Positions 4,653 to 43,697 of a DNA stretch of 64,000 nt are shown here, in pieces; position 1 is the first letter of the stretch; each line of letters opens with the position of its first letter. The translations under genes and the position numbers were made by a program. This DNA is from Bacteroidales bacterium (lineage in GTDB: Bacteria; Bacteroidota; Bacteroidia; Bacteroidales; UBA932): the NCBI GenBank assembly GCA_017549505.1, contig JAFYUS010000056.1, forward strand, positions 17,657 to 81,656. The letters run 5' to 3'. A model generated the notes under the pieces. That model had not been told where the DNA came from. It ran no database searches and saw only the letters and a list, made by a program, of their open reading frames with translations.

Positions 4653-5561
4653 ATGTCCGAATACCACACTCCAGTCTTGCTTGATGAAAGCGTTTCCGCT
4701 TTGATCGGCTCCCCTTCAGGAATATATGCAGACGCCACATTCGGCGGAGGAGGACACACCTCCGAAATCCTCAGGAGACTTTCTCCCGAGGGTCGTATGA
4801 TTTCATTCGACCGCGACAGCGATGCAATCGCCAACAAGCCTGATGATGAAAGACTTACGCTGATAAGAAGCGACTTCAGATGGATCCACAACCATATAAT
4901 CCACCAGGGATACCCTGAAGGCATCGACGGAGTTCTTGCAGACCTGGGAGTATCTTCCCACCAATTCGACACCGCGGAGCGAGGATTCTCCTTCAGGTAC
5001 GAAGCGCCTCTGGACATGAGGATGAATCAGGAGGCGCAGCTGACCGCAGCCGACATCGTCAACGACAGGGAACAGGAGGAACTGGAAAAGATCTTCCGGC
5101 TCTATGGAGAAGTCGACAACAGCCGGAGGATAGCGCAACTGATCTGCAAGGCCAGGGAAAGTACCAGGATCGAGACGACTACTGACCTCGGAAAGGCGAT
5201 AGAGAGCGCGTTGCCTAAATTCGCCGAGCACAAGTTCCTCGCAAAGATATACCAGGCACTGAGGATCGAGGTCAACCAGGAGATGAAGTCTCTGGAGAAG
5301 TTCCTTTCAGGAGCGGCAAAATCCCTGAAGCCGGGAGGAAAGCTGGTGGTGATAACATACCACTCCCTCGAAGACAGGATGGTGAAGAACTTCATCAAGG
5401 CAGGAAACATTGAGGGAAAGGTAGAGAAGGATTTCTATGGTAACTCGAAGGCGCCTCTTAAAGCGGTAAACAGAAAGCCGATATTGCCGCAGGAAAGCGA
5501 GATCGCATCAAACACGAGAGCAAGAAGCGCAAAACTAAGAATAGCGGAAAAGGAAGAATAG
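4653..5561 (+). CDS. rsmH: 16S rRNA (cytosine1402-N4)-methyltransferase
   Basis: 302-residue SAM-dependent methyltransferase that modifies C1402 of 16S rRNA with RsmI's partner mark. N-terminal HTPVLLDESV and the SAM loop DATFGGGGHT (about residues 26-36) are diagnostic; FDRDSDA and LADLGVSSHQFD follow, and the C-terminal half has NTRARSAKLR. A purine-rich AAAGGAGG precedes the ATG by a normal distance, unusual in a phylum that rarely relies on such sites. One base separates its stop from the ftsL-like gene. Confidence 0.97.
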   Translation: MSEYHTPVLLDESVSALIGSPSGIYADATFGGGGHTSEILRRLSPEGRMISFDRDSDAIANKPDDERLTLIRSDFRWIHNHIIHQGYPEGIDGVLADLGVSSHQFDTAERGFSFRYEAPLDMRMNQEAQLTAADIVNDREQEELEKIFRLYGEVDNSRRIAQLICKARESTRIETTTDLGKAIESALPKFAEHKFLAKIYQALRIEVNQEMKSLEKFLSGAAKSLKPGGKLVVITYHSLEDRMVKNFIKAGNIEGKVEKDFYGNSKAPLKAVNRKPILPQESEIASNTRARSAKLRIAEKEE

Positions 5562-5562
5562 A

Positions 5563-5916
5563 ATGGGCAACAGGTTCAACATAAGCTGGAAGAAGATAGG
5601 TCTTGCGATAAAGGAATTCTTTATCGCCCTTGGACGAGGTGACCTTCTTACCAGACTCAGGGTAGACAGGGCTCTTCCATACATCCTGTACCTCTTCCTT
5701 CTCGGATGCATAAGCATCTGGCTCAGCTACCACGCCGAGCAGACAATGCTCACCGTCCAGAAGAACAACGACAGGATAAAGACGCTCAAGGTCTACCACG
5801 CCCAGAAGACATATGAACTTGTCAGACTCGACAGGATAGCGACAGTGGAAAAGATGCTTGAAGAAGCAGGATCACAGGTAAAGGCGCCGGAGAAGCCGGC
5901 AGATATTTTAAGATAA
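5563..5916 (+). CDS. ftsL: FtsL-like cell division protein
   Basis: 117-residue bitopic membrane protein. A single hydrophobic segment (about residues 38-57, ALPYILYLFLLGCISIWLSY) follows a basic cytoplasmic N-terminus and precedes a short periplasmic region with coiled-coil character. In other bacteria FtsL forms a trimer with FtsB and FtsQ that activates the septal synthase FtsWI. Sequence conservation in this family is weak; the call rests on size, topology and its slot between rsmH and the transpeptidase gene. No Zn or catalytic motif is expected. Confidence 0.85.
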   Translation: MGNRFNISWKKIGLAIKEFFIALGRGDLLTRLRVDRALPYILYLFLLGCISIWLSYHAEQTMLTVQKNNDRIKTLKVYHAQKTYELVRLDRIATVEKMLEEAGSQVKAPEKPADILR

Positions 5917-5926
5917 GGAAAGGACT

Positions 5927-8080
5927 ATGGCCCGTTTGACCAGAAGACAGCAGCAGGAAGAAGACAAGCACAGGATCAGCAAGATCCTGTGGTACCTGTA
6001 TTGTACCTTCCTTGTACTTGCGCTGGTGATCATCATCAAGATCGTCAAGATCCAGTATTTCTGGGAGCCGGATCCTGAAACAGTAGAATATTTCCAGCCT
6101 AAGAGATACGAGAGTACGACAAAGCCGGAAAGAGGTGCTATCATGGATATGAACGGACGGCTTCTGGCAATCTCTACTCCCATGTACAACATTAAGATGG
6201 ACTGCGAAGTTCTGGAAGAGGAATTCAAGACAGCAAAGACCGCAAGAGAGGCAGATTCTCTTGAGACAGACTGGAGGAAGAAGGCCAGACTCATGTGTGA
6301 CAGACTCCCAGAAGTGCTTGCAAAGGACGGAAAGACATCCGACTACTATTATAATCTGATCATGAAGCATCGTGATTCAGATTCTCTTCCAGGAAGAAGG
6401 GACGTCCTCATCACAAAGAACATAGACCACCGTACATACCTGAAGCTGTGTGAACTCCCCCTCTTCAACGAAGGACAGTACAAGAGCGGAATGAAGAAGA
6501 CCGAGATAGAGACAAGGCAGTACCCGTACGGTACACTTGCCGCTCGAGTGATCGGTGACATAAGGATCAGCAAGGAGAACCCGGAGCAGAACAGGTTTGT
6601 CGGAATTGAGGGAGAGTACGACTACATCCTTCATGGAACTGAAGGAAAACAGTGGATGAAACGCACCGACAAGGGCAGCATCGCCGACCCGGACAGCACC
6701 GCTGTGGAAGTCGTGAACGGAAATGACATAAGGACAACACTTGACATAGATATCCAGGATATAGCTGACAGAGCTCTCAGGAAGAACATCGGAGATGATG
6801 CTGAGATCGAAGGAGGATGTGTGGTGGTGCTGGACGTCAAGACCGGAGCTGTAAGGGCGATGGTGAATCTCCAGAGAAACAGGGAGGGAGAACTCGGAGA
6901 GAACTTCAACATGGCCATAGGACGCCCGGGAGAGCCGGGATCGATATTCAAGGCCGTGACCCTGGCAGCCCTCCTGGAAGACGGTAAGGTAAAGCTCAGC
7001 AACAGGATCCCTACCAACCACGGAAGGATTGCAGAGATGCCCGAAATCACTGCAGACCACTACATTACTGATTGGGAAAGGAACAAGAAGACAAGCAGCA
7101 TAAGCATACAGGACGGATTCAAGATATCCTCGAACTATGTATTCAGAAGGCTGGTACTTGACCATTATGGTGACAAGCCGGAAAAGTTCATCGACAAGCT
7201 CTACGAATACAAGCTGAACGATGCCTATGCCTTTGACCTTGAAGAGAAAGGAGGTACAAAGTCACGCGTACCGGATCCGAAGTCCAGCGGATGGAGCCGT
7301 TCGACACTTCCTTCTACAGCCATCGGTTACTCGGTGATGGAGACTCCGCTGAACATCGCGGCATTCTACAATGCGATCGCGAACAAGGGCAAGATGATGA
7401 AGCCATATCTCATCGAATCTCACGAGAAGGACGGCAGGGTCGTACAGAAATTCGGTCCTCAGATACTGAATGCAACAACCTTCTCGAAAGCGACTGCTGA
7501 TTCTTTGACAAAGGCACTGACGATGGTGACATTGGAAGGAACAGGAGCCACAAGACTCAAGAATGCCAAATGTACCGTAGCAGGTAAGACAGGTACAGCA
7601 CGTATGGTACTCGATCCTGGCGAAAGAAAAGGAAGCAGGGACCCGTACAAGGATATAGACGGACGAAGAAAATATCAGGCGACATTCGTCGGATTCTTCC
7701 CAGCAGAGGACCCGCAGTATACAGCTATCGTGACAGTATACACCAAGCCGACGACAAAAAGCGTATACGGAGGTGTGATTCCGGCAATGACATTCCGTGA
7801 GCTTGTCGATCAGGTATGGTCGCTCGACAGCAGATGGGGAGAAGAACTGAATGAAAGGGCTGACGTCCCGGACATGACGCCCAAATACATAGCGACCAGA
7901 AGCGGTTCGGTCATTCCGGTGCCGGACGTGAAGGGGATGGGACTCAAGGACGCGTTGTACGCAATAGAAAACAACGGTTACGTATGTCAATACGAAGGTA
8001 TAGGACACGTAGTGAGCCAGGTGCCCGAAGCAGGCACCGAGTGCCGGAAAGGTGAAACAATAAAAGTCATACTCAGATGA
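5927..8080 (+). CDS. ftsI: Division-specific penicillin-binding protein (transpeptidase) with PASTA domain
   Basis: 717-residue class B PBP that crosslinks septal peptidoglycan. A TM helix lies at about residues 24-43; a dimerisation region with RGAIMDMNGRLLA follows. Transpeptidase motifs are in order: PGSIFK (catalytic Ser about 338), SSN (about 400), and KTG in AGKTGTARM (about 555). The C-terminus (about 660-717) is a PASTA domain (VPDVKGMGLKDALYAIE). Its TGA overlaps the murE ATG (ATGA), indicating translational coupling. Partner of FtsW encoded downstream. Confidence 0.96.
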   Translation: MARLTRRQQQEEDKHRISKILWYLYCTFLVLALVIIIKIVKIQYFWEPDPETVEYFQPKRYESTTKPERGAIMDMNGRLLAISTPMYNIKMDCEVLEEEFKTAKTAREADSLETDWRKKARLMCDRLPEVLAKDGKTSDYYYNLIMKHRDSDSLPGRRDVLITKNIDHRTYLKLCELPLFNEGQYKSGMKKTEIETRQYPYGTLAARVIGDIRISKENPEQNRFVGIEGEYDYILHGTEGKQWMKRTDKGSIADPDSTAVEVVNGNDIRTTLDIDIQDIADRALRKNIGDDAEIEGGCVVVLDVKTGAVRAMVNLQRNREGELGENFNMAIGRPGEPGSIFKAVTLAALLEDGKVKLSNRIPTNHGRIAEMPEITADHYITDWERNKKTSSISIQDGFKISSNYVFRRLVLDHYGDKPEKFIDKLYEYKLNDAYAFDLEEKGGTKSRVPDPKSSGWSRSTLPSTAIGYSVMETPLNIAAFYNAIANKGKMMKPYLIESHEKDGRVVQKFGPQILNATTFSKATADSLTKALTMVTLEGTGATRLKNAKCTVAGKTGTARMVLDPGERKGSRDPYKDIDGRRKYQATFVGFFPAEDPQYTAIVTVYTKPTTKSVYGGVIPAMTFRELVDQVWSLDSRWGEELNERADVPDMTPKYIATRSGSVIPVPDVKGMGLKDALYAIENNGYVCQYEGIGHVVSQVPEAGTECRKGETIKVILR

Positions 8081-9552
8081 GACTCGAGAAAGTCATAAGA
8101 GACAGCGGCTGCACTGTCATCAAAGGCTGTAGGCATGTAGATGTCTGCAGCGTTTGTGCTGATTCGAGGAAGGTGTCACATGGGGCGCTCTTCATCGCAG
8201 TCAAAGGCTTTGCCGTGGACGGACATGAATACATATCCAGAGCCATCGGAAAAGGAGCAAGAGTAATTGTCTATGAAGACCAGAAGGTTCTTGAACAGCA
8301 GATCGCTGCTACAGACACTGACGGGATCGTATTGGTCAAGGCAGAGTCATCGAGACATGCTCTCGCTGTCATCGCAGCCAATTTCTACGACAACCCGTCT
8401 GAGAAACTGACTCTCGTCGGCATCACCGGCACCAATGGAAAGACGACCACAGTCACTCTCCTCCATAGGATGTTCACCGCAATGGGATACAGCTGCGGTC
8501 TCCTTTCAACCATAGCGAACTATGTCGGCACAAAGGGAACGGAGGCAGTCAACACTACTTCAGATCCGCTTACCATCAACTCGCTTCTGGCCGAGATGGT
8601 GGATGCAGGATGCGAATACTGCTTCATGGAAGTAAGTTCCATCGGAGTCGAGCAGGAAAGGGTGACAGGCCTTAAGTTCAAGGCAGGTATATTCTCGAAC
8701 CTTACCCACGACCATCTGGACTACCACAAGACATTTGCAGAATACCTCAGATGCAAGAAACTGTTCTTCGACACATTGCCGTCCGACGCATACGCGATCA
8801 CGAACATCGACGACCGCAACGGTATGGTGATGGTCCAGAACACAAAGGCTGAGGTTGTGACATATTCTGTGAGAAGCATAGCTGACCACACCTGCCGTGT
8901 GATGGAACAGAGTTTCGAAGGAATGCTTCTGAAGATCGACGGAATCGAGGCATGGAGCGCCCTCATAGGCCTCCACAACGCATATAACCTGCTTGCCATC
9001 TACACTACGGCTGTAGTGCTTGGCGCAGAACCGGAAGAGGTACTTGTAGCCATGAGCTCATTGAAGCCGGCTCCGGGACGACTCGAAAACATACGCGGGC
9101 CAAAGGATATTTCCGTGATCATCGATTACGCACATACACCTGATGCACTCGAAAACGTGCTGAAGACCTTGCGTGAAATCGCTCCGGACCGCGAACTCAT
9201 ATGCCTGTTCGGCTGCGGAGGCGACCGCGACAGGACCAAACGTCCTGAAATGGCTGCTATAGCACAGAAGCTGGCGGACAGGATAATAGTCACTTCAGAC
9301 AACAGCCGTACAGAAAAGACTTCCGACATCATGGCTGACATCAAGGAAGGAATGGACATCAGCGGAAGGTCACGTTCGCTCTTCATCGAAGACAGGGAGG
9401 AGGCGATCCGCACGGCGATCATGATCGCCGGCCAGGGCGCGACGATCCTGCTTGCAGGAAAAGGTCATGAGACCTACCAGATCATAGGAACAGAGAAAAG
9501 ACATTTTGACGAAAAGGAGATCGTAGAAGGGATCTTCGCAACAATGAGATAA
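8077..9552 (+). CDS. murE: UDP-MurNAc-L-Ala-D-Glu:third-residue ligase (MurE)
   Basis: 491-residue Mur ligase that adds the third stem-peptide residue in the cytosol using ATP. The P-loop GITGTNGKTTT is at about residues 113-123, with SSIGVEQERV and the C-terminal domain following. The substrate-recognition site reads TSDNSRTE (about 406); meso-DAP enzymes usually have DNPR and lysine enzymes lack the Arg. Retention of Arg favours meso-DAP, in keeping with Bacteroidales walls, but the Pro-to-Ser change is odd. Overlaps ftsI by 4 bases and is 9 bases before mraY. Confidence 0.95.
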   Translation: MRLEKVIRDSGCTVIKGCRHVDVCSVCADSRKVSHGALFIAVKGFAVDGHEYISRAIGKGARVIVYEDQKVLEQQIAATDTDGIVLVKAESSRHALAVIAANFYDNPSEKLTLVGITGTNGKTTTVTLLHRMFTAMGYSCGLLSTIANYVGTKGTEAVNTTSDPLTINSLLAEMVDAGCEYCFMEVSSIGVEQERVTGLKFKAGIFSNLTHDHLDYHKTFAEYLRCKKLFFDTLPSDAYAITNIDDRNGMVMVQNTKAEVVTYSVRSIADHTCRVMEQSFEGMLLKIDGIEAWSALIGLHNAYNLLAIYTTAVVLGAEPEEVLVAMSSLKPAPGRLENIRGPKDISVIIDYAHTPDALENVLKTLREIAPDRELICLFGCGGDRDRTKRPEMAAIAQKLADRIIVTSDNSRTEKTSDIMADIKEGMDISGRSRSLFIEDREEAIRTAIMIAGQGATILLAGKGHETYQIIGTEKRHFDEKEIVEGIFATMR

Positions 9553-9561
9553 GAATAAGAT

Positions 9562-10812
9562 ATGATATACCACCTTGTAGAATATTTCAAGCAGATAGGG
9601 ATAGACATCCCGGGACAGGGCCTTTTCGGCTATCTGTCATTCAGAGCCATTGCTGCATTCACCACAGCACTTCTCATTTCCATCTTCGCCGGAAGGAGAA
9701 TCATAGAATGGCTCCAGAAGAAACAGATAGGAGAGACTATCCGTGACCTGGGTCTTGAAGGACAGATGCAGAAGAAGGGTACTCCTACCATGGGAGGCAT
9801 CATCATCTTCATCTCCCTCATAATCCCTGTACTCATCTTCGGAGACCTGACGAACATATACACCATACTGCTTCTGATAAGCACAGCATGGTTCTTCTTC
9901 CTCGGATTCACCGACGATTACATCAAGGTGTTCAAGAAGAACAAGGACGGCCTCAGCGAGAAGAAGAAGCTTCTCGGCCAGGGAGCCATGGCTCTCGCCA
10001 TCGGCCTGGCAGTATGTTTCAGCGACCAGATCGTCGTAAGAGAAGATGTATCGGCAGACAGCCGGATCGAGACATCGGTCGAGCAGGTGGATATGGTAAA
10101 GAGCACAAAGACCACCATCCCTTTCGTGAAGGATCATGAATTCGACTACAAGTGGCTTTCCCCATTCAAGGGTGCCATGGGCTGGTACTGCAAGTGGGCG
10201 ATATATGTACTCATGATCATCATCGTGATCACCGCCTGCTCGAACGGAGTGAACCTGACAGACGGAATGGACGGCCTGGCGGCCGGAACGTCTGCGATAG
10301 TGGGCGTCGTCCTTGGAGTGTTCGCATGGCTGGGAGGCAATATCGTCAATGCCGACTACCTCAACATCATGTACATCCCGGGAAGCGGAGAACTCGCAGT
10401 ATTCATGTCGGCTCTCGTGGGAGCATTGATCGGATTCCTGTGGTACAACACATATCCTGCACAGGTATTCATGGGTGACACCGGAAGCCTTATGCTCGGA
10501 GGTATCATCGGAGTAAGTGCGGTACTTATCAGAAAGGAGCTGCTTATCCCTGTCCTCTGCGGAGTATTCTTCGCTGAGAGCGTATCAGTGATAATGCAGA
10601 GAACATACTTCAAATATACAAAGAAGAAATACGGAGCGGGAAGAAGAATCTTCAGGATGGCTCCCCTCCACCACCATTACCAGAAGGAAGGCATTCCTGC
10701 CCTTATCCAGAGACCGGCAAAGGCGCTTCCTGAAGCAAAGATCGTATCAAGGTTCTGGATTGTGGGAATAATCCTCGCAGTCATAACCGTAGCATTGTTG
10801 AAAGTCAGATAG
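9562..10812 (+). CDS. mraY: Phospho-N-acetylmuramoyl-pentapeptide-transferase
   Basis: 416-residue polytopic inner-membrane enzyme that makes lipid I by moving phospho-MurNAc-pentapeptide to undecaprenyl phosphate. Key cytoplasmic motifs are KKGTPTMGG, FTDDYIKVFKKNKDG (catalytic Asp pair, about 117), NLTDGMDGLAAG (about 230), and PLHHHYQKEG (about 370). It is longer than the E. coli enzyme because of an insertion of about 45 residues after the DDY motif (VREDVSADSRIETS...), a feature seen in Bacteroidetes homologues. Followed 17 bases later by murD. Confidence 0.97.
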   Translation: MIYHLVEYFKQIGIDIPGQGLFGYLSFRAIAAFTTALLISIFAGRRIIEWLQKKQIGETIRDLGLEGQMQKKGTPTMGGIIIFISLIIPVLIFGDLTNIYTILLLISTAWFFFLGFTDDYIKVFKKNKDGLSEKKKLLGQGAMALAIGLAVCFSDQIVVREDVSADSRIETSVEQVDMVKSTKTTIPFVKDHEFDYKWLSPFKGAMGWYCKWAIYVLMIIIVITACSNGVNLTDGMDGLAAGTSAIVGVVLGVFAWLGGNIVNADYLNIMYIPGSGELAVFMSALVGALIGFLWYNTYPAQVFMGDTGSLMLGGIIGVSAVLIRKELLIPVLCGVFFAESVSVIMQRTYFKYTKKKYGAGRRIFRMAPLHHHYQKEGIPALIQRPAKALPEAKIVSRFWIVGIILAVITVALLKVR

Positions 10813-10829
10813 AAAGTCATTATAAAGAT

Positions 10830-12164
10830 ATGTCCAGAATTGTAGTGTTAGGAGGAGGAGAAAGCGGCGTGGGTTCCGCTGTCCTCGCAAAGGTAAAAGG
10901 TCATGAAGTATTCCTCTCGGATATGGGTAACATAACCGAGGAGTATGCTGCAATGCTCAACAAATGGGAAATCCCGTTCGAGCAGGGACATCATACGGAA
11001 GACCTTATACTCAATGCCGATGAGGTCATCAAGAGTCCCGGCATCCCTTCGACAGCCCCTATGGTCAGAAAGATCACGGAAAAGGGCATTGGAGTCATCT
11101 CGGAAATCGAATTCGCCGGCAGATACGACTCGGCGAAGAAGGTCTGCATAACCGGAAGCAACGGTAAGACCACTACGACCTCCCTCGTCTACCACCTGCT
11201 CAAGCAGGCTGGTCTTAACGTCGGACTGGGCGGAAATATCGGAAAGAGCTACGCTTTCCAGGTGGCTACGGAAAACTACGACATCTATGTACTGGAGCTG
11301 AGCAGCTTCCAGCTGGACAACGTATATGACTTCAAGGCGGACATAGCGATCATCACCAACATAACTCCGGACCATCTGGACAGGTACGGACACAACATGG
11401 AGAACTATGTCAAGGCAAAGTTCCGCATAACACGCAACATGTCAAGCGACGACTGCTTCATCTTCTGTTCTGACGACGAGATTACAGTAAGGCATCTTGA
11501 CCAGATCGTGATGAAGGCGCAGAAACTTCCGTTCACACAGAAGGAGGAAGTTCCGCAGGGAGCATTCGTCAAGGAAGACAGAATGATCGTCAGGTACAAG
11601 GAGGAAGAGTGCGACATGTACCTTCAGGAGCTTGCACTTGGCGGAAGACATAACGTATACAATTCCATGGCTGCGGCTCTCGCCGCCAAGGCCATGGACA
11701 TCGACAACGAAGCGATCCGCAGCGGTCTGGCGACCTTCCAGGCTGTCGAGCACCGTCTTGAAAATGTATTGAGCATCAAGGATGTACTCTATATAAATGA
11801 CTCGAAGGCTACAAACGTCGATGCCGCATGGTATGCGTTGGAGTGTCAGACAAGACCGGTAGTATGGATCGTAGGAGGTACAGACAAGGGTAATGACTAT
11901 GCAAGCCTTATCCCGCTTGCAAAGGAAAAGGTGAAGGCAATGATCTGCATGGGACTCGACAACAGGAAGTTCCACGAATCATTCGAAGGCATCGTTCCTG
12001 AAATCCACGACGTGACTTCGGCAAAGGATGCCGTACAGCTCGCCCACAGCCTCGCTGTGTCAGGAGACGTCGTGCTTCTGTCACCATGCTGCGCAAGCTT
12101 CGACCTTTTCAAGAATTACGAGGACAGAGGAAGACAGTTCAAGGAAGCGGTAAGGAATCTTTAG
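10830..12164 (+). CDS. murD: UDP-MurNAc-L-alanine:D-glutamate ligase
   Basis: 444-residue cytosolic Mur ligase adding D-glutamate. The N-terminal Rossmann-like UDP-binding domain has GGGESGVGSAVLA; the ATPase P-loop is CITGSNGKTTTT (about 106-116); ELSSFQLD and NITPDHLDRY are central-domain motifs; the C-terminal domain has NDSKATN and SPCCASFD. Length agrees with the family. Three bases separate its stop from ftsW. Confidence 0.97.
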   Translation: MSRIVVLGGGESGVGSAVLAKVKGHEVFLSDMGNITEEYAAMLNKWEIPFEQGHHTEDLILNADEVIKSPGIPSTAPMVRKITEKGIGVISEIEFAGRYDSAKKVCITGSNGKTTTTSLVYHLLKQAGLNVGLGGNIGKSYAFQVATENYDIYVLELSSFQLDNVYDFKADIAIITNITPDHLDRYGHNMENYVKAKFRITRNMSSDDCFIFCSDDEITVRHLDQIVMKAQKLPFTQKEEVPQGAFVKEDRMIVRYKEEECDMYLQELALGGRHNVYNSMAAALAAKAMDIDNEAIRSGLATFQAVEHRLENVLSIKDVLYINDSKATNVDAAWYALECQTRPVVWIVGGTDKGNDYASLIPLAKEKVKAMICMGLDNRKFHESFEGIVPEIHDVTSAKDAVQLAHSLAVSGDVVLLSPCCASFDLFKNYEDRGRQFKEAVRNL

Positions 12165-36355: not shown

Positions 36356-39300
36356 TTAGTTCTGGAAAGTCACTTTAACAGTAGCTGTTCTCTCACCCCA
36401 TACATACTTGAATGTTACAGGAACGCTGATTTCAAGAGCCTTAGCAAGCTGGAGATCTCCAGTATTGTTGAATGTAACAACACCGTCAGCGAATGTAACA
36501 TAAGCAGCCATTTCTGCAGGGATATTTACCTTACCCCACTCGTAGGTGATGCTGTAAACAGTCTGAGGGTCTACAGAGTACTGAACTGAATTCCAGTTAC
36601 CACCCTTGAGGATAGCATTTGCCTTAACGTCTGTCATGACGAGATAGTCGAATGCATCCACTGTGTATTCCTTAGACTCAGATACCTTGACAGCAGGAAC
36701 CTCTGCTACTGTAAGAGCATCGATAGGATCATACTTCTTGACAACATAGTCTGCATAAGTTTCAGCAAAGTTTGTAGGGATCTCGATTGTGTTTCCATTA
36801 GAGTTCACAAGGGCGATCTTAGCATCTACAGAAACTGACTCGTCAGCACCGTTGTAAGTAAGTTTGTTGTTCGCCATCACGATACCCTCGCTTTCTGCCT
36901 CAACAGAGAACTTGACATCGATACCAGCTGCTGCGAGAGCGTCTGCATCCATAAGAGTTCCCTTGTCATCATAGAGATAGAATGCCTGAAGCATATTGAT
37001 CTCGTTAACTGAGAAGCCAGAGATAGGCTCTCCGACGAACTTACCGATTACCTGTGAGTAGTATCCTTCTGCTGAATCGTATACATAGTACTCAGAGTGC
37101 TTGAATGTATACTTAGGAAGCTCGAAGTTGAGAGCCTTGGTGATCACAAACTCCTGACCATACCAAGTAGTCACCTTCATTGTGTACTCGAGACCTGTAG
37201 GGATTACGCCGTCAGTCTGGAAGTCAGTGCGGTAAGTGAAGTCAGTATGGATTTCGTTAGTCGCACCAGGAACAAGCTTGAGACCTGTTGTCCAGCCTGA
37301 ATTCTTGTCTACGATAGGAGCATATACATACTCACCTTCCTCATCCTTCTCAGCTGGCTGGATCGAAGTCTCATAAGTAAATGCGTTAGTTGCAAATACA
37401 TCCTTGAGCCACTCAGCCGCAGTCATCTCAGAAAGATCATAAGAGATAGCCTTGTAGAGGACATCAAGACTGTCGACTACATCACCCTTGAGTACAAGAT
37501 CCTTAGTATAAGTAACAGTAGAAGCAGGAAGCTCGATCTCGATAGACTCATTGCTGCGGCCTACAGTGTTTACAACGAATGTGAATACAACGTCAACATT
37601 CTCGAGAGCATAAGTAAATACAACTTCGTATGGCTCTTCAGACCATTCAGGGAATGAGAGTGCGAGAGTTGCCATCTCACCGTCAACTGTAACAGCTGCT
37701 GCAGCCTCAGGGTAATCCTTAACCATGCATGTGCCTGCCATTGCAAGAACGTCAGCTATTTCAGTATCTGCAGGGAGGTTCTCAGCTGTGAATGAATCCA
37801 CAGAGTAAGAGAATTCGCGTGTATAGAAGCCCTGGTTTGCGTCAACGCCTGCATCACTCTTGTATGACCAAGTAGCTGTCTTCTCAGGAGCAGTAACTGT
37901 TGCCTTCTCACGACCAACAGCAATGTTTGACATAACCTGGAAAGACGCATCGTACTTCTCACAGTAGATTGCATAGGCCTGAGTAGTGAATGCACCGATA
38001 TTCTCAGCCTTCACACCTTCAGCAAGTGAAATGCTTGCAAAGCCATCCTCACCGATTGTCTGAACGAAGTACTTCGCAGCCATAGGAGTTGCGCTCTGAA
38101 GAGGGAGAGCAGTCATGGTTATATCGAAATCATATCCCGCAGCTGCAAGATCTGCTGCTTTTACATAACTAGGTTCTGCACCCCACATAGACACCTTAAG
38201 AGCAGGAGTTATGTCTTTCAATGCGACTACAGATTCGTTGCTGGTATATGGAATTTCAAGGCTCTCGAAAGAGAAAGGAGCTACTTCCTTGCCCTGCTTA
38301 TTCAACACGACTACCTCAGCGATATAAGAACCATAACTCATTTCTAAAGGCAAATACTCGCTTGAACGAACGTTATTACCATCATCAAGTACCAATGCAT
38401 ATACATAGCTCTTGTTGAATTCTTCATTCATTTCCCACGTATCAGCATTCTTAAGTGGATTGAAATCATGTCCAATGACAGTAAGATTGAGCATTCCTGA
38501 AGCGTCAGCAGTTGCTTTTACAACCTCAAGCGTAGGAACTTCTTCGCCCTTAGTCTCTACACAGTCAAATGAAAGAACGCTAGGATCTGCTGCTATTGCA
38601 GCTGCACATTCTGCAGGATAAACCTTGAAACGAATTTCATAAGGAAGAGCTGTAGATCCAAGACAATTATTATTATTCTCCCAATCGTAATCCATGAAAA
38701 GTGCAAACTCCATTACTGGATTGCCATACTTGTTGATAGGAACATTCACCATGCTCTGAACGCGTGATGCAAGATCAGCGATGATAGACCAGTTGAGTAC
38801 AAGAGGCTCCTCTGTTCCCTCTACGTTATAAAGGGTAAGAGAACCATTCTCTGAATCCCAAACTGCTGTAACAACGCCCTCTACATAGATAGACTCGCCT
38901 TCGTAAGTCTCATCCTTGACGCCGTTCACATATTTTACCCAAACACCATTTTCTGGAGCATAGTAAATTGTGTCACCGTCAACGCCGTCCTTGCCGTCTT
39001 TTCCGTCAGCACCGTCCTTGCCGTCAGCGCCATCCTTGCCGTCTTTTCCGTCAACGCCGTCTTTGCCGTCAGCACCGTCTTTGCCGTCAGCACCGTCCTT
39101 GCCGTCTGTACCGTTGATACCATCTTTACCGTCCTTACCATCGGCACCCTTTGAAGGCTTACCGGTATCAACACCGTCAATGAACCAGTTACCGTTGTCA
39201 CCGATAGTAATCACTGAACCCGGCTTACCATCAGCGCCATTCTTACCGTCGGCACCATTAGCACCATCTTTACCATCAGCACCATTAGCACCATCCTTAC

Positions 39301-39547
39301 CGTTTGTAAGCTCGAAAGTCTTTCCGTTGCTGAGAGTAACCTTTACACCTGTAGCTGTAGACTGAACGTCAGTAACGACAGCACCAGCAGAAATCTGAGC
39401 CTTAAGGTCAGCCACAGATGCCTCGACCTTAGACAGACGATCGCTGAGATCCGCCATTTCATTCTGAAGTTCCTCTGTACAACCGGTGTACACGAAAGCT
39501 GCGCATACTAATGCGCCAGCCATCAATCTCTTAAAGATTTGTTTCAT
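36356..39547 (-). CDS. Large collagen-like surface lipoprotein (DUF4988 type)
   Basis: 1063-residue predicted surface lipoprotein. Signal and lipobox end at Cys23 (VYTGC); residues 24-55 form a coiled coil (LSDRLSKVEASVADLKAQI), then a DUF4988/PL29-N-type beta segment (SNGKTFELTNG). Two Gly-X-Y tracts follow (about 83-110 and 134-192, GKDGADGKDG-type), then about 870 residues of beta-rich repeats with no catalytic motif seen. Collagen-like stalks in bacteria lift adhesive or binding domains from the surface. The upstream 50 bases show no promoter; the nearest one lies beyond an inverted repeat, inside an apparently invertible segment, and points away. Expression is therefore predicted to be phase-variable. 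Confidence 0.88.
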   Translation of the reverse strand: MKQIFKRLMAGALVCAAFVYTGCTEELQNEMADLSDRLSKVEASVADLKAQISAGAVVTDVQSTATGVKVTLSNGKTFELTNGKDGANGADGKDGANGADGKNGADGKPGSVITIGDNGNWFIDGVDTGKPSKGADGKDGKDGINGTDGKDGADGKDGADGKDGVDGKDGKDGADGKDGADGKDGKDGVDGDTIYYAPENGVWVKYVNGVKDETYEGESIYVEGVVTAVWDSENGSLTLYNVEGTEEPLVLNWSIIADLASRVQSMVNVPINKYGNPVMEFALFMDYDWENNNNCLGSTALPYEIRFKVYPAECAAAIAADPSVLSFDCVETKGEEVPTLEVVKATADASGMLNLTVIGHDFNPLKNADTWEMNEEFNKSYVYALVLDDGNNVRSSEYLPLEMSYGSYIAEVVVLNKQGKEVAPFSFESLEIPYTSNESVVALKDITPALKVSMWGAEPSYVKAADLAAAGYDFDITMTALPLQSATPMAAKYFVQTIGEDGFASISLAEGVKAENIGAFTTQAYAIYCEKYDASFQVMSNIAVGREKATVTAPEKTATWSYKSDAGVDANQGFYTREFSYSVDSFTAENLPADTEIADVLAMAGTCMVKDYPEAAAAVTVDGEMATLALSFPEWSEEPYEVVFTYALENVDVVFTFVVNTVGRSNESIEIELPASTVTYTKDLVLKGDVVDSLDVLYKAISYDLSEMTAAEWLKDVFATNAFTYETSIQPAEKDEEGEYVYAPIVDKNSGWTTGLKLVPGATNEIHTDFTYRTDFQTDGVIPTGLEYTMKVTTWYGQEFVITKALNFELPKYTFKHSEYYVYDSAEGYYSQVIGKFVGEPISGFSVNEINMLQAFYLYDDKGTLMDADALAAAGIDVKFSVEAESEGIVMANNKLTYNGADESVSVDAKIALVNSNGNTIEIPTNFAETYADYVVKKYDPIDALTVAEVPAVKVSESKEYTVDAFDYLVMTDVKANAILKGGNWNSVQYSVDPQTVYSITYEWGKVNIPAEMAAYVTFADGVVTFNNTGDLQLAKALEISVPVTFKYVWGERTATVKVTFQN
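38972..39301 (-). repeat. Tandem 9/18-bp repeats encoding the Gly-X-Y tracts
   Basis: Codons for G-K-D-G-A-D type triplets repeat as near-identical 9- and 18-base units over 38972-39148 and 39218-39301. All unit lengths are multiples of three, so slippage would change stalk length without breaking the frame. Confidence 0.8.
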
Positions 39548-39597
39548 AAAGGAATAGAATTATTTAATGTTAGTTAAGTTGTTCACAATACAATCTG

Positions 39598-39621
39598 CAT
39601 TTATTCCACAGAATAATAAAT
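39598..39621 (-). repeat. Left inverted repeat of the invertible segment
   Basis: Minus strand reads ATTTATTATTCTGTGGAATA and then AATG; it matches 41127-41150 on the plus strand at 23 of 24 positions. It sits 50 bases before the lipoprotein start codon and 6 bases after the recombinase stop. Confidence 0.85.
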
Positions 39622-39627
39622 GGTTAC

Positions 39628-40845
39628 CTATATATCCAGCAGTTTTCTGGCATTACAGATACGTTCCTCCTTGTCGTAACACCCCAGATATACCTCTGTC
39701 ATATGGATGCTAGAATGTCCTAGACTTTGAGAAATAAATGATATGTTCACTCCACTTTTCATCAGTATCGTTGCATATGAATGGCGAGCGGAATAAGTAG
39801 AAACGTGTCTGATACCTATGTCTTCAGCAATTACTTTCATTGCTGCATTACAGCTACTTATGGCATTCCTTACTATATTTATTATTTCCTGAGGAGTCTC
39901 TGTCCCTTTAGCAAACCTGAACAACATACCATCAGAAGGGCCTGATATGCCATTACCATGTCTTTCAATTATATCTGACATTTCCTGCAACAAAGGAGCT
40001 TTGATGATCTTGGGAAATTTATTCGACGAGGATGTCTTGCTGCGAACAAATGTTATCTCACCATTCACGATACAACTCCTCCTAAGAAACAGCATATCTC
40101 TGAAATTTATTCCATTACACATGTATGAGAATAGCCACAGATCCCGCCAGTATTCACATTCTTCATCTCCCTTCCAATTCCTGATTGACAATATTTCGTC
40201 TCGGGTAAGTGCCATATCTCTTGTACGTGACGCAGGTATCCTGTACTTACCTGGGGCAAAAGGATAATCATCCTTCATCATGTAACCATCATTAATAATT
40301 TCATTGAATACACATTTGAGAACCCTCATATAGATATTTATAGTTGTAGTACTCTTACCTTCCATAATCCAGAAGTCTTCACATCTGGACAGCCATTGAA
40401 CTGTGACTGAATCAAATGATATAGATAACCCTGAAAATCTTTCCAAAGCCCTCAGCGTTGTCCGGTAACGATAAAACGTATTGATTTTACCATTCTTCCT
40501 AGCTGAATCCATCTTTGACTTTATTGCATCATTGACCGTCTTCTTTACATTTCCAAGATGTGCCTCTAATCTCAACAGACTGAATTCACCTCTATCTATC
40601 AATCTGTTAGCTTCATTCCTGATCCGGCTGTATACCTTTTCAACATATGATGCTTTCTCTGACTTCCTGTGTATAGTCCAAATGGCCGACCATTCCTTCT
40701 CCGAAACATCTATACCTGTTGGAAAATATTTTTGTTTACGTCTGAAAATCACTTCAATCTTTATTGGATAAAGACCGTTTTTCTTCTTGTGTCTCGTATC
40801 AAGTACCGTCATTACAGAGACACCTTCTCTTCTGAATCTGTACAT
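39628..40845 (-). CDS. Tyrosine site-specific recombinase
   Basis: 405-residue integrase of the Bacteroidetes type: an arm-binding N-terminal domain (RRKQKYFPTGIDVSEKEW), a SAM-like core-binding domain (about 95-200), and a catalytic domain. Catalytic residues visible are the first Arg in NGINFRDMLFL, TYSARHSYATIL (Box II Arg/His), the SLGHSSIHMTEVYLG segment with His and the nucleophilic Tyr. A TTG at 40890 opens a longer frame; the ATG at 40845 (MYRFRREG) fits the family better. It lies wholly inside the pair of inverted repeats that it probably recombines. No neighbouring phage or conjugation genes are present, which argues against a plain integrative element. Confidence 0.92.
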   Translation of the reverse strand: MYRFRREGVSVMTVLDTRHKKKNGLYPIKIEVIFRRKQKYFPTGIDVSEKEWSAIWTIHRKSEKASYVEKVYSRIRNEANRLIDRGEFSLLRLEAHLGNVKKTVNDAIKSKMDSARKNGKINTFYRYRTTLRALERFSGLSISFDSVTVQWLSRCEDFWIMEGKSTTTINIYMRVLKCVFNEIINDGYMMKDDYPFAPGKYRIPASRTRDMALTRDEILSIRNWKGDEECEYWRDLWLFSYMCNGINFRDMLFLRRSCIVNGEITFVRSKTSSSNKFPKIIKAPLLQEMSDIIERHGNGISGPSDGMLFRFAKGTETPQEIINIVRNAISSCNAAMKVIAEDIGIRHVSTYSARHSYATILMKSGVNISFISQSLGHSSIHMTEVYLGCYDKEERICNARKLLDI

Positions 40846-40890
40846 GGTGTTTAAATTATTGTTTACATGTTTTTTACATACAGTAACCAA

Positions 40891-41126
40891 AAATCAACGT
40901 ATATATTATATATGGTATGTCAGAGCCTTCAGACCCTATCAATTTTAGAGAATCAAACCCTAGAGGATCAGACAGGATATGTATGTACACATATATATGT
41001 AAAATGAATGCAAAGCTTTCCAACGATGTTTTTTGTATGGAATTCTTGCGGATACAAAATTTTTGATTACATTTGCAAATCAATATGCATTCACGGGAAC
41101 ATATAAATTGAGTAAAAGACTATATA
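40891..41126. other. AT-rich leader region inside the invertible segment
   Basis: No gene. It holds the outward promoter (41046-41075), an AT-rich palindrome ACATATATATGT near 40990, and must also supply the recombinase promoter on the minus strand, for which no exact TAnnTTTG was found (closest complement CAAAGCTT near 41011). Confidence 0.6.
41046..41075 (+). promoter_or_regulatory. Consensus promoter at the edge of the invertible segment, pointing outward
   Basis: TTG at 41046-41048, exactly 19 bases, then TACATTTG at 41068-41075: full match to the Bacteroidetes -33/-7 pattern. Transcription would start near 41082 and cross the right inverted repeat. No plus-strand gene follows; a terminator does. 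In the flipped state the leader before the lipoprotein ATG would be about 120 nt. Confidence 0.78.
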
Positions 41127-41150
41127 ATTTATTATTCTGTGGAACAAATG
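41127..41150 (+). repeat. Right inverted repeat of the invertible segment
   Basis: Plus strand ATTTATTATTCTGTGGAACA then AATG; complements 39598-39621 with a single C/T difference. Its last six bases form part of the terminator stem at 41145-41181. Confidence 0.85.
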
Positions 41151-41181
41151 AGAGTGACTGAAATTCAGTCACTCTCATTTG
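41145..41181. terminator. Terminator overlapping the right inverted repeat
   Basis: 17-bp perfect stem, CAAATGAGAGTGACTGA (41145-41161) and its complement at 41165-41181, 3-nt loop AAT. It would stop transcripts from the outward promoter in the present orientation. Confidence 0.8.
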
Positions 41182-41366: not shown

Positions 41367-43616
41367 CTACTCCGCTATGACTTCTACAACAGCTGTAGAA
41401 TCGGTCGCTGCTTCGCAGTCGGTGCAGCATTCTACCACTTCTTCTGCTACTACCTCAGTCTGGTTGTAACGTGGGAGCGGTGAGTTCAGGCCGGCCCATG
41501 AGAGGAGGTTGAAGAGCCAGAGTCCTCCAGCAACTACAACGAGGGCTGCGATAGTGATGAGCCATGCTTTCCATGGAGCCATACCTGCCTTTGCATACGG
41601 ATCCTTAAGCTTCATCTTAGGATACTTTGCAGCATCTGTAAGGGTTTCTCCGAAAGGAATGCTGATCTTTGAAGCGGCATTGACAGCCCATCCGTTTGCA
41701 TTGAGGAGAGGGGCGATGTTGCGGCGACGGAGCTTCATCCATGCCATGATCATTGCAGGTCCTGAGATTACAAGAAGGATGGCAGCTATGACAACGAGGG
41801 TCTTCCACCAAGGCATTGCAAGGATACCTCCGAAGATGCTGGTAAGAGCTGTTCCCAATGCTCCCAATGCCATACCGAAGGCTGCAAAGATACCGGCGAA
41901 CTTACCGATGTCGAAAGGCTGCGCAGGCGCTGCAGGGGCCCCTGCAGCTGTGGCAGCAGGTGCTGCATTGATCTTGGCTGTAGCATCCGCCATCATCTTG
42001 GCATCCTTGTCTGCAGCACTCTTGTTGATGAGGTTCTCGATAGCCTTGGCCATTCTGCGGTAAGGTGACCAGAACGCCTGAGCTACACTGATAGGATTAT
42101 CGATGATCTTTGTGATCACAGCATCCCATTCCTCACCTGCATTGTCATAATAAACAGCATTCTTACCTACGATAAGATCTCCGATCTCTCCTACTGTAAC
42201 TGCTGCAACGATATTGAGAGTACCTGGTTTCGACTTGGTCTTGCAGTCGCAGTATACGAGGAACATTCCGCTGGTCGCAGCTGAAGCATTATGTTTCGCC
42301 ATATCCGCAACCTTCATACAGAAACGGCACTCCCTCTGGTCGATGATGAGTCGTCCTGACTGGAAGATAGCGGCAACATCCTTGTCCTTTGTATAGAAAT
42401 CGTTAAGGGTAACGAAGTTTCTTACGAGTCTGTAGAAATCGCGGAAGATGTGGAGGAACTTGTCCACCATCTGGATATTGGCAGCTTCTTCAGCAAGAGC
42501 TGCATCCTGTGCAACGAGGTCATGAAGCGAAGCCTTTCTGTCCTTTGCGATGAAATCCTTGACCGCATCAAGTCCGAGAGCCTCCACGCATGCTCCTGCC
42601 TTGGCTCCCTTCCATGCTGTATATGCAGCGAACTGAGCACCGACTGCTGCCCAGTCAGCTTCTGTAAGCACCTTCTTGTCAGCAAAGGCAACAGATCTCA
42701 CAAGTTCAAACTTTGCAGCCCATGCAGGGTTCACCGGAGCTGTAAGGTCAAGTTCAGCCTTTCCTGTAATACGTGCGATAGGATAAGATGCTATCTCATC
42801 GGTCTTTGCTGTAAGGTTCTCTGTGCTGATGGCCTGGATGCTTGCTGTCTGCACATCGAGAGATGCTGTACTGTCTGGAGAGAAGGCAGCGAGCTTTGAA
42901 CGCATGAAGAAATCCTTCACTTTTGCATCGAGCGCATTATAGGCGTCGATGACAGCATCAGTCTTGTCTCCGAACGGCGCCTCTACTGCAGCACCATGCC
43001 ATGCAACGTAATCAGCGAGGTTCTTATAGAAAGCCTCGATCAGGTCTGCATTCACACCTGCAGCACCGCTGCGGTCTGCAACGCCGCCTAGCGAAGCTAC
43101 GGCGGCTGCAATCGCAGCCTTGTCATCTGCATCCTCGGCTGTAGCCTCGGTGATGATTCCGTCGCCGTTGAAACGGGTCTTCGCGAAAATAGCCGCTACA
43201 TCAGCTGTGTCTGCCAAAGAGATGACAGTGCCTTCCTTGCCAAGATTTGCAAGAATCTGCCTTGCACAGTTGTAAAGCTTCTTTCCTTCCGGATTTTCCT
43301 GGTCCAGGTTCTCGATATCGATGCTGTCCTTGCCTTCGAGAACGAGGTCTGCGTTCTTCAGGACGCCTGTGATCCACTGCGAAGTGGCGATCACGTCGTT
43401 GACACGGATCTTCTCATCACCGTCGATATCCATATACCTGAGACTCTTGTCATCGATCTCAAGGCCTGTTACAGGACATGAAAGGACTGTCCACATCTTA
43501 GGGTCGAGTTCTGCGAGATGAGCGATATCCTCACCTGAACTGATTCTTACTCGTGAAGAGCCGCCAAGATTCACGAACTCCCACTTGTACTTCTTGCTGT
43601 TGTTAAAGATTGCCAT
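41367..43616 (-). CDS. Large membrane protein of unknown function with EF-hand-like motif
   Basis: 749-residue protein, not recognised as a characterised family. Start at 43616 (MAIFNNSKKYKWEFV) is preferred; the in-frame ATG at 43661 adds 15 residues. The N-terminal part has DIDGDEKIRVNDVI, close to a Ca2+-binding EF-hand loop, and a second weaker one (RFNGDGIITEA). A long Ala-rich helical region follows, then three hydrophobic segments in the last 170 residues (GIFAAFGMALGALGTAL, WWKTLVVIAAILLVISGPA, WLITIAALVVVAGGLWL) and an acidic, Cys-containing tail. It follows the 486-residue gene by 81 bases, so the two may work together. Function not assigned. Confidence 0.75.
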   Translation of the reverse strand: MAIFNNSKKYKWEFVNLGGSSRVRISSGEDIAHLAELDPKMWTVLSCPVTGLEIDDKSLRYMDIDGDEKIRVNDVIATSQWITGVLKNADLVLEGKDSIDIENLDQENPEGKKLYNCARQILANLGKEGTVISLADTADVAAIFAKTRFNGDGIITEATAEDADDKAAIAAAVASLGGVADRSGAAGVNADLIEAFYKNLADYVAWHGAAVEAPFGDKTDAVIDAYNALDAKVKDFFMRSKLAAFSPDSTASLDVQTASIQAISTENLTAKTDEIASYPIARITGKAELDLTAPVNPAWAAKFELVRSVAFADKKVLTEADWAAVGAQFAAYTAWKGAKAGACVEALGLDAVKDFIAKDRKASLHDLVAQDAALAEEAANIQMVDKFLHIFRDFYRLVRNFVTLNDFYTKDKDVAAIFQSGRLIIDQRECRFCMKVADMAKHNASAATSGMFLVYCDCKTKSKPGTLNIVAAVTVGEIGDLIVGKNAVYYDNAGEEWDAVITKIIDNPISVAQAFWSPYRRMAKAIENLINKSAADKDAKMMADATAKINAAPAATAAGAPAAPAQPFDIGKFAGIFAAFGMALGALGTALTSIFGGILAMPWWKTLVVIAAILLVISGPAMIMAWMKLRRRNIAPLLNANGWAVNAASKISIPFGETLTDAAKYPKMKLKDPYAKAGMAPWKAWLITIAALVVVAGGLWLFNLLSWAGLNSPLPRYNQTEVVAEEVVECCTDCEAATDSTAVVEVIAE

Positions 43617-43697
43617 ATATAAAAAAATGATTGATTTTTTCAGAATGCTAAATTCCTCCAAAATTAATCATTTTTTCTTAAAGACTGTCAATCAGCC

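Follow-up and report, generated by a model that had tools for sequence, protein, structure and literature searches.

A putative phase-variation switch in Cryptobacteroides with a tyrosine recombinase gene inside its own invertible segment

In a 64-kb stretch of draft-genome DNA from a Cryptobacteroides bacterium (the window, to which coordinates refer unless another locus is named), a tyrosine recombinase gene and an outward-facing promoter lie together between two inverted recombination sites, next to the gene of a predicted surface lipoprotein. The locus is probably a self-contained phase-variation switch, in which the recombinase inverts its own segment together with the promoter and thereby controls the lipoprotein. 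An invertible promoter with an enclosed recombinase switching this lipoprotein had been put forward from the DNA alone (the original prediction), and the recurrence of the same parts in relatives strongly supports it. The arrangement matches that of Bacteroidales invertible promoters generally, a promoter bounded by inverted repeats and placed ahead of a surface gene. The host draft genome comprises 2.13 Mb in 69 contigs and is 78% complete; a contig of Candidatus Cryptobacteroides avicola stands among the same-genus genomes (L004 within L062), and the genus is therefore Cryptobacteroides.

Architecture of the Locus

The features on which the argument turns are as follows.

36356..39547, minus strand: target gene, a collagen-like surface lipoprotein of 1063 aa (lipobox recognised by eye, collagen repeats; surface location predicted)
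39599..39621: left recombination site, 23 bp, ATTTATT-CCACAGAAT-AATAAAT, inside the 24-nt repeat 39598-39621
39628..40845, minus strand: tyrosine recombinase of 405 aa, between both sites, with 6 nt separating its stop codon and the left site
40994..41023, minus strand: possible recombinase promoter, TTG-N19-TACATATA, weak, with two departures in the -7 box, spotted by eye
41046..41075, plus strand: outward promoter, TTG-N19-TACATTTG, aimed away from the lipoprotein as sequenced
41127..41149: right recombination site, inverted, ATTTATT-ATTCTGTGG-AACAAAT
41143-41162/41164-41183: perfect hairpin with 20 complementary bases per arm and one base between, starting within the right site, in its outer half

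The 24-nt inverted repeats (39598-39621 and 41127-41150) are complementary at 23 of 24 positions, matching the single mismatch originally claimed, and are the only pair of at least 23/24 lying within 4 kb of each other across the 64-kb window; none of 20 base-shuffled windows contained such a pair. The two cores are exact reverse complements of each other, and the one mismatch falls in the outer half of the right site. Both sites follow the same dyad plan as the sites in relatives, a 23-bp ATTTRTT-N9-AAYAAAT whose core varies between loci and is the same but inverted within a pair. Exact matches to this plan in the draft genome, of which about a fifth is missing, are confined to the two window sites; the reversed pattern, searched as a control in the same draft, occurs nowhere, and two exact sites were present in none of 100 shuffles of the window. 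When up to one mismatch was allowed, the window's genome contained its repeat pattern twice, and of 198 other genomes of the family, two contained it a single time each.

The complete tyrosine recombinase gene that had been claimed between the repeats is there, both as an open frame (39628-40890, minus strand) and by its domains, with matches to Phage_int_SAM_5, Phage_integrase, and Arm-DNA-bind_5 above the Pfam cut-offs; none of the NCBIfam models exceeded its cut-off for any of the seven recombinases tested. The alignment of relatives prefers the ATG at 40845 (405 aa) to the TTG at 40890 as the start codon. R369, H392, and Y401 are invariant in a six-row alignment, and the usual first catalytic arginine could be placed only without certainty. 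The promoter scan did not pick out the candidate at 40994-41023, and no strong promoter was found for the recombinase. On the far side of the switch lies an adjoining gene of 764 aa (41367-43661), for which no Pfam match was obtained at E 0.001.

The outward promoter is of the Bacteroidetes type and stands between the repeat arms, upstream of the recombinase gene. The claimed TTG, 19-base spacer, and TACATTTG are present, though weak as a lone match: of 400 base-shuffled strands from the 236-nt gap, 36 scored as well, and the strict promoter form utilised in the survey below (TTG-N18..21-TANNTTTG) arises in 1.3% of base shuffles of the window element. Facing it is the hairpin, which folds with 19 pairs at -30.6 kcal/mol (z -7.6) and is a probable transcription terminator or insulator opposing the outward promoter. 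A 17-bp terminator beginning within the right repeat had been described; a hairpin does begin there, but it has 20 bases per arm rather than 17, it lacks a distinct T-run, and it went undetected in the terminator scan.

Proposed Mechanism and the Sequenced State

In the proposed mechanism, the recombinase (39628-40845) would bind the two 23-bp sites and invert the 1.55-kb segment between them. As sequenced, the promoter would fire rightward into the 20-base hairpin, where transcription is expected to end; in the flipped orientation, transcription would begin about 120 nt ahead of the lipoprotein, a computed distance that agrees with the one first claimed, and the hairpin would then follow the recombinase gene. 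The promoter and the recombinase are divergent and would move together, such that the switch promoter would drive the recombinase in neither state. The original prediction had stressed that the recombinase acquires a different downstream neighbourhood on flipping, which is the case, but the gene's own upstream DNA travels along with it unchanged, and its transcription start should therefore be independent of orientation.

The lipoprotein gene starts 50 nt outside the left repeat. The view that it lacks a promoter of its own is in keeping with the scan of the DNA just upstream, in which no site reached at least 8/10 to the Bacteroidetes consensus and a single weak sigma-70-like site appeared (39588-39559, one of five found against 8.6 expected). 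Within the same stretch, positions 39578-39589 read ATTGTGAACAAC on the minus strand and resemble ATTGTGTAACAA, the form seen at lipoprotein-side sites of relatives; the likeness may mark the remnant of an older downstream switch or be due to chance.

The further claim that the sequenced orientation is the OFF state holds in so far as the promoter aims away from the lipoprotein; OFF itself is not established, given that read-through is possible and no terminator was found. The recombinase and the lipoprotein run in the same direction 80 nt apart, and the terminator scan between them detected nothing, so that read-through from the recombinase could give low lipoprotein expression as sequenced. 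It is thus conceivable, if rather unlikely, that the element sets a level, with inversion raising the lipoprotein from a low amount. Two further loci, L047 and L048, lend this some weight: a probable lipoprotein start (MKK) lies 102 nt past the recombinase stop with no strict promoter found between, a gap that would fit shared transcripts. On the other hand, with no strong recombinase promoter found, expression by this route may be very low, and the big hairpin opposite suggests that outward transcription is meant to stop.

Survey of Related Loci

Among 400 genomes of the genus, 24 (including that of the window) gave a recombinase match at E 1e-60 or better; at 1e-70, 27 of 398 family genomes did so, spread over six of 25 genera; the 19 loci numbered from the genus search were already within the set of 80 relative loci surveyed here. 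The lipoprotein has relatives at 1e-20 in 22 of 151 genus genomes, its own again counted, mainly via the N-terminal part. Collections of genome contigs and viral contigs, searched with the single window recombinase, returned no relative, and the 23-bp site was absent from the viral contigs; the second orientation of the window's species was therefore not found in these collections.

The repeat scan covered 58 of the 80 relative loci, and the scan for genes and sites 54, the remainder being more distant. The dyad-site scan took in these 54 and the window (55 loci), allowing four arm mismatches per site and six per pair at most and requiring agreement at seven or more of the nine core positions. 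Pairs with matching inverted cores were detected at 10 of the 55 loci, compared with 0/275 base shuffles and 1/275 dinucleotide-keeping shuffles, the site pattern having been taken partly from scanned loci, for which the scan was not blind. One of these pairs, at L063, lies 2.3 kb past the recombinase and was dropped. When 20 loci lacking a clear pair were searched for repeats under looser conditions, L055, L061, L066, and L069 were added, all four judged with repeats and promoters viewed jointly. The total came to 13 repeat-bounded elements, with the window included and L063 excluded. For the remaining loci of the 55 a site pair was not found, some of them ending at contig edges and some resembling mobile-element integrases.

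Every one of the 13 elements contains exactly one strict promoter, on one strand; the number expected over all 13 is 0.175 from base shuffles and 0.318 from dinucleotide-keeping shuffles. Each of the 13 likewise has a neighbouring gene with a lipoprotein-type start, either immediately adjacent or separated from the element by an OmpA-family gene, the signal being called by a simple pattern and, in L078, by eye. In the usual layout (9/13), a small promoter element is situated downstream of the recombinase and before the lipoprotein, and its promoter aims at the lipoprotein in L049, L069, and L097 and away from it in L056, L061, L066, L068, L072, and L078. The recombinase lies inside the element in the other four, namely the window, L046, L055, and L094.

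Several loci fell outside this count. An OFF-like element was seen by eye in L084 (identical with L039) and was not counted, no clean repeat pair having been found, and L175-L178, from other genera, held no convincing element. In L064, L086-L088, and L096, from cultured Bacteroides species, the repeats were short and unconvincing; at these five loci, a related recombinase is located between a glycosidase and a SusC-like gene, assignments with a Pfam basis in L087 (GH2 and SusC-like) and L064 (SusC-like) only. L040/L090 carry a recombinase copy with a large N-terminal loss, adjoining an OmpA-family gene with no lipoprotein seen beside it, and probably represent a decayed switch. A set of near-identical recombinase relatives (L052-L054, L073-L075, L079, L081, L083, and L093), drawn from records of several Bacteroidales genera, look like mobile-element integrases; small genes come after them, with HTH matches in both of those tested.

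Natural Inversion between Related Species

Direct evidence that elements of the downstream type flip is provided by L056 and L097, which occupy the same genomic place in two related species and have two upstream genes in common. The right flanks, including the lipoprotein start, are 97% identical over 100 nt and the left flanks 88% identical over 42 nt, whereas the element between them aligns only in reverse (84.8% over 125 nt when whole regions are compared). For the interior by itself, the reversed alignment reaches 81.7% over 104 nt, and the direct one yields only short matches at chance level. The L097 recombinase carries internal deletions, and this copy may therefore be locked now. The evidence from this pair covers the downstream type and not the recombinase-inside type.

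That the window locus might itself be a fossil, with recombinase and sites intact yet no longer inverting and the locus locked as seen, is improbable. The base by which one outer half-site differs would be in line with such a loss, but strand exchange in the core need not have matching outer arms, the cores are identical, and the recombinase is full-length with its R369, H392, and Y401 residues conserved as noted above. It is more improbable still that the locus is simply a mobile element that landed next to the lipoprotein, its integrase bounded by terminal repeats, because, despite the related recombinases near-identical between genera in apparent mobile elements of Parabacteroides, Phocaeicola, and Alistipes records, no cargo gene lies between the window repeats, these repeats match the promoter-flanking sites of relatives, and the lipoprotein-type neighbour, alone or behind an OmpA-family gene, recurs at all 13 elements.

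The Recombinase-Inside Group

The self-contained switch proposed for the window has its nearest relative in L046, which belongs to the same genus (G393) and whose recombinase is 66% identical. Its sites (7751 and 9245) enclose the recombinase and a promoter positioned 5' of the recombinase and pointing away from it; the recombinase stop lies 5 nt from the site (6 nt in the window), and TTTGCAAATC at the -7 end of the promoter is common to both loci. Across L046:3653-15165, each side of the element carries an outward-facing pair, an OmpA-family gene and then a coiled-coil-like lipoprotein (of 887 aa on one side and 1486 aa on the other), and the two OmpA-family genes are 76% identical to each other. 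The promoter points left, and a flip would aim it right. A 680-nt stretch of L046 also recurs in the inverted sense (643/680).

L094 is built along comparable lines (4899-12094), with two divergent collagen-like lipoproteins flanking a short recombinase and one promoter between matched sites. The recombinase, of 325 aa, is without the N-terminal part, and the promoter comes after it in the same direction. The lipoproteins are near-identical at their starts (443/447 nt) and 40% identical overall; likeness at the start and difference later are as expected for the exchange of antigens or phage receptors, and L094 is likely an antigen exchange locus. In both L046 and L094, one flip would swap the product of one surface gene or operon for that of the other. 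In the fourth member, L055, the recombinase and promoter lie between perfect 18-nt repeats with different arms, and one flank carries an OmpA-family gene and a lipoprotein.

In a tree of 29 chosen recombinases, the window, L046, L055, and L094 fall on one side of a branch with support of 69/77, and the grouping recurred in 86% of 200 bootstrap trees; the recombinase-inside label requires a single change, a value as low being reached in none of 500 label shuffles. A quick tree of 57 rows needs two changes (31 of 500 shuffles as low) and places L078 and L099 inside the same weak group. L071 and L089, which have split frames, were omitted from the input, and internal stops were entered as X. A single origin of the recombinase-inside layout is thus favoured. 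On balance, we lean towards the view that a Cryptobacteroides recombinase lineage moved inside its own segment and became a portable Hin-like cassette, which would act as an on/off switch in the window and L055 and as an either/or switch in L046 and L094. The more interesting side of the finding lies outside the window, in the either/or cassette of these last two loci.

Comparison with Known Systems

In Bacteroides fragilis, the tyrosine recombinase Tsr19 (BF2766) inverts an adjacent and a distant promoter, the latter controlling a lipoprotein-containing cluster, according to the available part of that report (PMC4747536). Tsr19 and the window have in common the tyrosine recombinase domains and a promoter switch tied to a lipoprotein gene. 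The Tsr19 gene, however, apparently lies outside the inverted DNA (“immediate downstream promoter”) and serves two places, as far as the same portion of the report goes (PMC4747536), whereas the window gene is inside, between 39599-39621 and 41127-41149, with no other exact site in the draft genome. The S-layer lipoprotein BT1927 of B. thetaiotaomicron is phase-variable through an invertible promoter with inverted repeats and protects from phage; the likeness again consists of an invertible promoter with inverted repeats controlling a surface protein, compared here by description, and the sections available describe no recombinase inside the inverted DNA (PMC12548429). Switches of Bacteroidales resistance genes likewise hold a promoter of this type (consensus TTTG/TANNTTTG) between inverted repeats, with an adjacent invertase that, from the accessible text, is apparently outside (PMC8748976). 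In a defined gut community, invertases near invertons were characterised as “generally non-regulatable” by the promoter of the inverton, and one group stood out as a possible exception, in the part of the study available (PMC11892184). A switch promoter that would never drive the recombinase fits this description.

Both the recombinase and the promoter of the window lie inside the segment as in the Hin system, and L046 and L094 resemble Hin's exchange of two products. The Hin segment has an outward promoter inside, and Hin is a serine recombinase that works with an enhancer; the window enzyme, by contrast, belongs to the tyrosine recombinases, and surface lipoproteins are the products. The location of the Salmonella recombinase gene inside the inverting segment is given in the consulted part of PMC5903667. 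At a pneumococcal locus, the tyrosine recombinase gene psrA sits among the inverting genes, between hsdSB and hsdSC, but the system shuffles the coding sequence of a methylase subunit rather than a promoter, in the portion available (PMC4948785). The original prediction had singled out the recombinase travelling inside the switch as the unusual part, which fits the Bacteroidales cases but not recombination systems at large, Hin (PMC5903667) and, in a different sense, psrA (PMC4948785) already being inside according to those partial sources. In the literature searched, mostly without subscription journals, there was no report of a tyrosine recombinase inside a Bacteroidales invertible promoter, and none was found on the genus Cryptobacteroides together with inversion and phase variation.

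Implications

If the proposed reading is true, the layout of Hin, with the enzyme encoded by the very segment it inverts, has arisen among tyrosine recombinases as well, in a genus of gut bacteria known mainly from metagenomes. With the site rule ATTTRTT-N9-AAYAAAT and its locus-specific core, switches and their states would become readable from metagenomes, and pairs of surface proteins that a single clone is likely to exchange would become nameable.
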